64,000 nt of DNA from Puniceicoccus vermicola (GTDB taxonomy: Bacteria; Verrucomicrobiota; Verrucomicrobiia; Opitutales; Puniceicoccaceae): assembly GCF_014230055.1 (NCBI RefSeq), contig NZ_JACHVA010000139.1, positions 1 to 64,000 on the forward strand. Reading direction: 5' to 3'. The notes under the pieces were generated by a model, which searched no databases, was not told where the DNA came from, and worked only from the letters and a program-made list of their open reading frames with translations. Numbering within the stretch: the stretch's first letter is position 1; every line of letters starts with the position of its first letter. Position numbers and translations under genes: made by a program. Of the stretch, positions 2,889 through 5,071 are shown in pieces.

Positions 2889-3530
2889 GTGATCTTCAGA
2901 ATTGTGAGTGATCGATCAACAGCAGCGGCGGCAGGAGTGCAAACGGGTAAAGTCGGATTGGCTGACTCGGATGCGCGTCTGATTGAGAGCGTCCGTTCCG
3001 GAAACATCGCGGCCTTTGATCAGCTGGTTAACAAGTATAAACAGCGCATTTTTGCGATCATCTACAATATGACCTCGAACCGTGAGGACGCCGCCGATTT
3101 GACGCAGGATTGCTTCATTAAGGCTTTTCGTTCTCTCGACCGATTCAAAGGTCGCTCTCATTTCTTTACTTGGCTTTATCGCATCGCCGTCAACGCGACC
3201 CTCAGCCACATCAAGCGGAACCGGTATCGCCGCTTTTTCAGCTTCGAGAATCTGAACGAGGAGGGCGTTAGTCCTGACTTGGCAGAGGCTCTGGCTTCGA
3301 AAATGCAGACCGAAAGACCCGTAATGTTGGGGGAATTGCAGGAAAAATTGAACGAAGCTCTCCAATCGCTGTCTCCCAAACATAGAACTGTCGTAGTTTT
3401 GTTTGAGATTGAAGGTTTGAGTCATGAAGAGATTTCTGAAGTTTTGCACACGTCGGTGGGAACAGTCCGTTCCCGGCTTCACTATGCAAAGCGTCAGCTG
3501 CAAGCATCTCTTCAGCCATACCTCGGTTAG
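2889..3530 (+). CDS. ECF-type RNA polymerase sigma factor
   Basis: A 213 aa sigma-70 family protein of the extracytoplasmic-function class. Region 2 lies at about residues 30-115 and contains the core-binding DLTQDCFIKAFRSLDRFKG stretch (70-88) and TWLYRIAVNATLSHIKR. Region 4 lies at about 150-205 with a helix-turn-helix, HEEISEVLHTSVGTVRSRLH. No ATG is available before region 2. The chosen start is GTG at 2889, and another GTG at 2904 is equally possible. It is followed after 9 bp by a single-span membrane protein and then by an HtrA-like protein. This order resembles sigmaE-RseA-DegS type units, so it probably answers an envelope signal (inference). Confidence 0.9.
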   Translation: MIFRIVSDRSTAAAAGVQTGKVGLADSDARLIESVRSGNIAAFDQLVNKYKQRIFAIIYNMTSNREDAADLTQDCFIKAFRSLDRFKGRSHFFTWLYRIAVNATLSHIKRNRYRRFFSFENLNEEGVSPDLAEALASKMQTERPVMLGELQEKLNEALQSLSPKHRTVVVLFEIEGLSHEEISEVLHTSVGTVRSRLHYAKRQLQASLQPYLG

Positions 3531-3539
3531 CGAGGAACG

Positions 3540-4076
3540 ATGCTAGAGCTTAAAGACGAAGATAAAAAAACATCCTTAGAGGATCTCCTCCGGGTCAAGC
3601 GGGCTGAGAAGCCTGATGATGCCTTTTGGCAGAAGTTTGACCGGGATCTGGAGAAGAGGATTGTTAAATCGGTGGTCCATCGGGAATCGCCGGTACAGTC
3701 CGTTCTGCAATGGGTCTACCATCACGGGAAGAGCATCACAGCGATTTCCTGTGTCTCGGTGGGAGCCTATTTTCTTTTTTCGGATGCTGACGTTGCTCCT
3801 GTTAAAGAAACTTATGTGGCCGATGTGAGGCCAGCTCCGGCGGCAACGGAAGCTCTCGCCAAGGTGGATACCTGGTCGAGCGGAAGCGCACCCTCGTTGA
3901 AGGGTTCGGAGCAGGATTATGTGATTGAAGTGCTCTCGAGTGGAGCAGGGCCCTCTAGTGGCGCCGGAAGATCATGGTTGGGAAATTCCTCGCAGGAGGA
4001 TTCAGGCTCTTATTATGTAGCCGACCAATTATCTTCCAGCGAATTGGGGTGGTCGGGCGAGCGGTTGCCGTTCTAA
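3540..4076 (+). CDS. Putative single-span membrane protein, candidate anti-sigma factor
   Basis: A 178 aa protein not recognised by sequence. The N-terminal 60 residues are charged and helical (DDAFWQKFDRDLEKRIVKSV), followed by one likely membrane segment at about 65-80 (SITAISCVSVGAYFLF). The C-terminal half is Ser/Gly-rich and low in complexity (SSGAGPSSGAGRSW) and would lie outside the cytoplasm. A good ribosome site, GAGGA, lies just before the ATG and overlaps the end of the sigma gene region. Position directly after an ECF sigma gene and the one-span topology suggest an anti-sigma factor. No ZAS zinc motif (HxxxCxxC) is present, so this rests on context only. Confidence 0.55.
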   Translation: MLELKDEDKKTSLEDLLRVKRAEKPDDAFWQKFDRDLEKRIVKSVVHRESPVQSVLQWVYHHGKSITAISCVSVGAYFLFSDADVAPVKETYVADVRPAPAATEALAKVDTWSSGSAPSLKGSEQDYVIEVLSSGAGPSSGAGRSWLGNSSQEDSGSYYVADQLSSSELGWSGERLPF

Positions 4077-4087
4077 TTTAGGCGTCC

Positions 4088-5071
4088 ATGTGGCGTTTCG
4101 CTTTTATTTTTTTAGGGCTTTTGAGTCCTCTTGCAGTTCCTCACCTCTTTGGAAGTGAGGCCCTGGCTCTGGAGCGGCGTCTGACGACGGTTTTTCGGGA
4201 CAATAACGCGAAGGTCGTCCGGATCAAGGCTGCCTACGAGAGCGAAACGGAAAACGGGAAGGTTTCCCTTCGAGTGGGGACAGGATTTTTCGTGAGTTCG
4301 GATGGGTTGATTCTAGCGAACTCGAGTGTCACGGAGGGTGCGCGCCGGATCTGGGTGGAGCAGGGAGATACAAGCTATGTGGCCGAGATGGTCGGGTCGG
4401 ATGCGGAGACCAACATTGCCCTCCTCCAGGTCACGGACCAGCCCAAGGGCAGTTTCGACTTTATTCCCGTGGATGAGCAGCCTTATCCGGACGTCGGGAC
4501 CCTCTTGCTCTCGATCGGTTGTGCACTGGAGTTCGATCCGGCCCCGCGCCTGGGCTTGGTCAGTGGGCAGGACTCGAATTTCGGGCAACGCGTATTTCCG
4601 ACGGCCTACATTCGCACGACGATTCCGGCCAATCCGGGGGAGGGCGGTTCGCCGGTTCTCGACCTCAATGGACGGTTGCTGGGAATGATCGTTGCCTCTC
4701 TGCCGGAGGTCGGTGCTTCGTATGTGATCCCGGCAAGTGCAATCGGACGGGTTCGCGATGATCTAATGCTCAATGGATCCGTGCAATACGGTTGGATCGG
4801 GGTTGAGGTGGAGAGTCGACCTCGCGGTGCTGACGATGAGGCTCCGCTTCTTGTGACCAGTGTCGTTCCCGGAGGTCCGTCCGATGTGGCGGGGATTCAG
4901 GAGGGAGACCGGATTCAGAAGATCAACGGTTTGTCGGTACCTACGATTAACGTCATGAGGCATCGTTTCTTCCTCGCGCGCATCGGGCAGTACATTGATT
5001 TCATGATCGAGAGAGAGGACAAGGTCCTCGATTTAGGGGTGCGCGTCGGCGAACGCCCGGCGGCCGAGTAG
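4088..5071 (+). CDS. HtrA/DegP-like trypsin-fold protein with PDZ domain, catalytic triad lost
   Basis: A 327 aa exported protein with a signal peptide (about 1-23), a trypsin-like domain (about 30-225) and one PDZ domain (about 235-327, PLLVTSVVPGGPSDVAGIQEGD). The fold is clear: GTGFFVSSDGLILAN, the TNIALLQV strand and DLNGRLLGMI. The catalytic residues are not the usual ones. The His position of NNHV is Ser80 in ANSSV. The Asp of TDxAxL is Asn109. The Ser of GNSGG is Gly186 in NPGEGGSPV. I read all three from the DNA. It should therefore be a non-proteolytic sensor or scaffold. It closes the sigma operon, 11 bp after the previous gene. Confidence 0.85.
   Translation: MWRFAFIFLGLLSPLAVPHLFGSEALALERRLTTVFRDNNAKVVRIKAAYESETENGKVSLRVGTGFFVSSDGLILANSSVTEGARRIWVEQGDTSYVAEMVGSDAETNIALLQVTDQPKGSFDFIPVDEQPYPDVGTLLLSIGCALEFDPAPRLGLVSGQDSNFGQRVFPTAYIRTTIPANPGEGGSPVLDLNGRLLGMIVASLPEVGASYVIPASAIGRVRDDLMLNGSVQYGWIGVEVESRPRGADDEAPLLVTSVVPGGPSDVAGIQEGDRIQKINGLSVPTINVMRHRFFLARIGQYIDFMIEREDKVLDLGVRVGERPAAE

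Follow-up and report, generated by a model that had tools for sequence, protein, structure and literature searches.

A triad-less HtrA-fold protein encoded behind an ECF sigma factor and a candidate anti-sigma factor with an aromatic C-terminus in Puniceicoccus vermicola and its relatives

The usual explanation of sigmaE-type control invokes a protease that detects unfolded outer-membrane proteins and cleaves the anti-sigma factor. The algU-mucA-mucB-mucD operons, which we used as control loci, carry an HtrA-type gene downstream of the sigma and anti-sigma genes, with the MucB gene lying between; MucD is an active DegP-type HtrA with an intact triad, and the anti-sigma proteins of these loci do not end in Phe or Tyr. 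Regarding PDZ ligands, DegS of E. coli takes the type YxF and AlgW of P. aeruginosa the end WVF (PMC8545111; PMC11642142). AlgW, an active protease, cleaves both MucA and MucB, and its residues W281, L282, V284 and E285 contact the C-terminal end of the ligand (PMC8545111). An HtrA-family pseudoprotease is known from magnetotactic bacteria, where MamO has a degenerate triad and is conserved in a clade (PMC4794232).

We have defined as the window the whole stretch of 64,000 nucleotides from Puniceicoccus vermicola that was analysed. Between positions 2889 and 5071 it holds three plus-strand open reading frames, spaced by 9–11 bases, that encode a sigma factor, a middle protein and an HtrA-fold protein, and our reading of the frames reproduced the positions given in an earlier note on this DNA. 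A polyprenyl synthase gene lies upstream of the sigma gene (1776–2816), a common neighbour of the operon order-wide and, in part, in further orders as well. Judged by its predicted products, the operon has the logic of the sigmaE systems. It shares with DegS/RseA/RseB/RpoE of E. coli an RpoE-like sigma factor, a one-span anti-sigma protein, an HtrA fold with one PDZ domain, and RseP, which is present in the genome; unlike that system, its HtrA protein lacks the triad, the aromatic tail belongs to the anti-sigma protein itself and the operon has no RseB gene. As in the control loci, the HtrA-type gene follows sigma and anti-sigma, but it encodes a triad-less (hereafter dead) HtrA in place of an active protease such as MucD or AlgW, and the anti-sigma candidate ends in Phe. 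The likeness to MamO is that of an HtrA-family pseudoprotease kept in a clade; in contrast to the window protein, MamO works in metal binding for magnetite formation, has a transporter domain and has no tie to a sigma factor.

The first frame (2889..3530, plus strand) encodes an RpoE-like ECF sigma factor, with matches to Sigma70 regions 2 and 4 (PF04542, 9.8e-18; PF08281, 1.5e-16) and a score of 119.2 bits against the ECF superfamily model TIGR02937 (cut-off 42.9). Its 147.3 bits against the RpoE (sigma-24) equivalog TIGR02939 fall below the cut-off of 236.15. The ECF assignment of the earlier note is thus sound as to the domains, while the start may be the GTG at 2904 and not 2889, given that one relative (L084) begins at the equivalent of 2904. 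The conserved part begins at about residue 25. Identity to relatives ranges from 52 to 89%. After enumeration of two-part motifs in 100 upstream regions, we found no convincing conserved ECF promoter motif upstream of the sigma gene.

The anti-sigma zinc finger zf-HC2 is a hallmark of class I anti-sigma factors. The middle protein (3540..4076, plus strand, 178 residues) gave no Pfam or NCBIfam match, and Pfam found no zf-HC2/ZAS zinc finger in it. In relatives, its counterpart is encoded directly after the sigma gene, and its N-terminal part (3573..3683) carries the motif LEDLLxxKRxExPxxxFWxxFDRxL, the presumed sigma-binding part, with K20, E23, P25, W30 and F33 invariant in alignment A3. This part is homologous to the partners from other orders (profile match with 97.3% probability, E 2.4e-11), two of which, L089 and L101, contain zf-HC2 above the cut-off. 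Because of this homology to zf-HC2-bearing partners we take the middle protein as an anti-sigma factor; the one-span candidate of the earlier note therefore gains its identity through homologues, and not through any domain match of its own. A hydrophobic stretch read from the sequence (KSITAISCVSVGAYFLF, 3729..3782) is the presumed membrane span, and the protein ends in Leu-Pro-Phe (4065..4073), a presumed PDZ ligand.

The third frame (4088..5071, plus strand) encodes an HtrA-fold pseudoprotease of 327 residues with one PDZ domain. Both its Trypsin_2 (PF13365, 1.1e-18) and PDZ (7.9e-10) matches lie above the Pfam cut-offs, in agreement with the trypsin-type fold and PDZ domain read earlier from the letters alone. 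A putative signal peptide or N-terminal anchor was read from the sequence at 4088..4162, and the AlphaFold2 model (mean pLDDT 92.9) contains one hydrophobic N-terminal helix, residues 2–42. The closest structures to the model are DegP/DegQ at Z 33 (33.4 over 289 residues for DegP), with Z values of 29.6 for DegS carrying an OMP peptide and 29.0 for AlgW. According to the codons and to the alignment with MucD and DegP, the catalytic His, Asp and Ser are indeed replaced by Ser80 (AGT, 4325..4327), Asn109 (AAC, 4412..4414) and Gly186 (GGC, 4643..4645). The structural match and PF13365 place the protein in the HtrA fold, and it has the trypsin fold with a single PDZ domain of a DegS; we refuse DegS membership because the His-Asp-Ser triad is absent and the score against TIGR02038 (97.4 bits) is far under the curated cut-off of 422.95. 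Scores were also below the cut-offs for the Do endopeptidase TIGR02037 (142.8 bits; 416.2) and for MamO, NF040961 (31.7 bits; 800).

We then compared 137 distinct homologues, which come from the Opitutales-like order itself, from further orders of its class and from one class beyond it. In one family, matches of about 1e-20 to 1e-25 were active HtrAs, and these were left out of the homologue set. None of the 137 has His at position 80 or Asp at position 109, where Asn (106) and Gly (26) are found, and position 186 is Gly in 79 and Ser in 12. Since Ser returns in these 12, only the loss of His and Asp is invariant, and the replacement of all three residues emphasised in the earlier note does not extend to every relative at the nucleophile position; the selection for binding alone that the note read from it is thus presumptive. 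Homologues occur in 4/4 genomes of the family with 59–77% identity; within the genus identity is 71–77% and the replacements are identical, and across the order it is about 30–46%. A search with profile A1 extended the dead HtrA to other orders of the class and to one genome of another class (L108).

The order sigma, middle protein, dead HtrA is found at about 36 of 40 loci order-wide, often behind the polyprenyl synthase gene, and also in other orders and in another class. Replacements and gene order are thus both conserved among orthologues, which supports the earlier proposal of a pseudoprotease in a conserved sigma/anti-sigma operon; the case that would speak against it, a relative with an intact triad in the same operon, was not found across several hundred genomes. 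Around the intact HtrAs L111–L120, no match to this sigma factor was detected in 1.5 kb flanks. In a tree built from 31 dead and 19 active HtrAs, a branch with support 100 separates all the dead proteins from the active ones, and therefore one origin suffices. Seven genomes of only 0.8–0.9 Mb (G044, G074, G109, G112, G121, G122 and G133) keep the sigma factor and the dead HtrA; in such genomes this sigma factor is the only sigma hit at 1e-8. This retention suggests an important role. In family f30 of the same class, a still more degenerate trypsin/PDZ protein follows the anti-sigma gene (L146, L149 and L150), and the anti-sigma proteins of L149 and L150 end in Met, not Phe.

The anti-sigma proteins are strongly divergent past the membrane span, apart from their C-terminal end. 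Among 128 operons with a dead HtrA, the last residue was aromatic in 124 (Phe in 96, Tyr in 28), against a background of 5.8% with an F/Y/W end in 295 other long open reading frames; the table of C-terminal residues includes a few problems of frame choice or assembly (L188, for instance, contains N). Position -3 was hydrophobic in 70% of the 128, and positions -2 and -4 showed no such preference. The C-terminal triplet is thus hydrophobic-x-Phe/Tyr which, going by its residues, corresponds to the ligands taken by the PDZ domains of DegS and AlgW, DegS taking hydrophobic-x-Phe. In family f17 (L323–L326, L070, L071) the dead HtrA gene lies apart from the sigma and anti-sigma genes, and the anti-sigma proteins nevertheless end in NTY, AIF, SLF and PAF. 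Beta-barrel proteins of the P. vermicola genome end in GTRF, GFPF, GQPF, ARW and YHF. An outer-membrane insertion signal is a less likely cause of the terminal Phe of the anti-sigma proteins, because hydrophobicity, high at positions -1 and -3, is low at -5 and -9. The aromatic anti-sigma tail is a new observation of this work.

The PDZ domain of the window protein (4778..5050, from Pfam and the predicted structure) contains W236-I237-G238-V239-E240 (4793..4807), a carboxylate/aromatic pocket in which W236, I237, V239 and E240 have the spacing of the AlgW motif W-L-x-V-E that binds the C-terminal WVF of MucE. Among the homologues W236 is conserved in 118/137 and G238 in 133/137. These pocket residues are compatible with the binding of hydrophobic-x-Phe C-termini. 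The earlier suggestion of a protein that binds peptide ends receives indirect support from the kept pocket and the aromatic end of the anti-sigma protein. Clades with Tyr-ending anti-sigma proteins mostly have Phe at position 239, and three Phe-ending members within one such clade have Leu. In a tree-aware comparison, with about 3 contrasts only, column 239 was the PDZ column that best tracked Tyr versus Phe ends; by raw mutual information, a measure confounded by kinship, it ranked 65 of 279. A shift of tail type with residue 239 is therefore suggestive only, and we infer the pairing of the dead-HtrA PDZ domain with the anti-sigma tail.

On the basis of these sequences, the best reading is that the product of the third gene cannot cut and works by binding. 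The dead HtrA and the anti-sigma protein probably form a pair that signals via binding, given that the cutting residues are lost in all the relatives compared and that the anti-sigma tail is almost always of the PDZ-ligand type. For the way in which this might occur, we favour, at about even confidence, a model in which the PDZ domain of a periplasmic dead HtrA holds the anti-sigma tail. The PDZ groove would grip the hydrophobic-x-Phe/Tyr-COOH end of the anti-sigma protein and so keep both it and the sigma factor off; unfolded outer-membrane proteins, with similar C-terminal tails, would compete for the groove and free the anti-sigma tail; and the anti-sigma protein would then be removed by another protease, either the active DegP-type HtrA or a site-1 protease, followed by RseP. 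The tail–PDZ contact, the competition and the order of proteolysis are all presumptive, and possible roles of the dead HtrA include both protection of the anti-sigma protein and its recruitment for cleavage by another protease. More tentatively, the locus may represent a class-wide envelope-stress pathway with inverted DegS logic, in which the sensor is a protease whose catalysis was lost long ago, the anti-sigma tail imitates that of an outer-membrane protein, and real and imitation tails compete for one PDZ groove.

Some homologous sigma/anti-sigma pairs lack the dead HtrA. Outside an Opitutaceae-like clade, none of 19 anti-sigma proteins from loci lacking the dead HtrA (a subdivision-3-like clade, two Verrucomicrobiaceae-like rows and outgroup rows) has an aromatic tail, and such an end is rare where the sigma factor is a more distant relative, in anti-sigma proteins that are mostly from Proteobacteria. 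The dead HtrA changes state 4 times over the sigma tree, and when its presence was set against the aromatic tail in a tree-based test, 3 pairs were supported, of which 2 agree, 0 oppose and 1 is without difference (p 0.5). The association is suggestive and not significant, because the supported independent pairs are only 3; this small number counts against the binding model favoured above, as does the failure of raw mutual information to single out column 239. A further point against it is the genome G011 (L067): the polyprenyl synthase gene there is followed at once by the dead HtrA, neither a sigma nor an anti-sigma gene intervenes, and this sigma factor was not found elsewhere in that genome (best match 32%).

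The same tail and pocket would serve equally if the dead HtrA were an adaptor that joins an active HtrA in a mixed oligomer and delivers the anti-sigma tail to it, in which case the sigma factor would stay off if the gene were lost. There is a precedent in MamO, a pseudoprotease that promotes proteolysis by MamE (PMC4794232), and the genome does encode an active DegP-type HtrA. That protein, a single copy, is the only other PDZ-HtrA found in the genome, and it is unlinked to the operon, which leaves the adaptor as a rather unlikely alternative. Two further trypsin-like proteins in the genome keep catalytic-looking motifs and have no recognisable PDZ domain.

HtrA proteins can be chaperones, and the dead HtrA could be a co-regulated periplasmic chaperone without contact to the anti-sigma protein, while an active HtrA, the PDZ domain of RseP or a tail-specific protease reads the tail. 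The strongest point for this explanation, and one against the binding model, is the Opitutaceae-like clade: without the dead HtrA, its anti-sigma proteins have a terminal Phe in 24/24 rows, and since the Phe is kept there, something else can read the tail. This clade lost the dead HtrA, and another partner may read its anti-sigma tail. Its anti-sigma proteins are also longer, about 270–355 residues, and end in SIKF, LTLKF or SFRF (L121–L136, L232–L236, L238, L239, L242). However, the remaining lineages without the dead HtrA are also without the tail, dead HtrA and anti-sigma are adjacent over a class, and the tail type appears to shift with residue 239. We regard a separate tail reader as unlikely.

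The Ser at the nucleophile position in 12/137 homologues could point to a dead HtrA that still cuts through other residues, but the catalytic positions hold no His or Asp in any of the 137 and most also lack Ser, and this option is highly improbable. A pseudogene, a sequencing error or a single-strain loss is next to inconceivable and was rejected, given that the frame stays open and the replacements persist over many genomes, including those of 0.8–0.9 Mb, and that the replacements are identical within the genus at 71–77% identity.

We found no description of a sigma pathway with a dead HtrA in the literature searched, a search that did not take in the large ECF reclassification of 2021. The aromatic tail offers a directly testable prediction that concerns a single residue. 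If the binding model is true, a widely kept dead-protease version of sigmaE-type control would mean that sensing and cutting are separable, it would clearly exemplify an HtrA pseudoprotease that selection maintains as part of a signalling system, and it would show how a little-studied phylum monitors its outer membrane.
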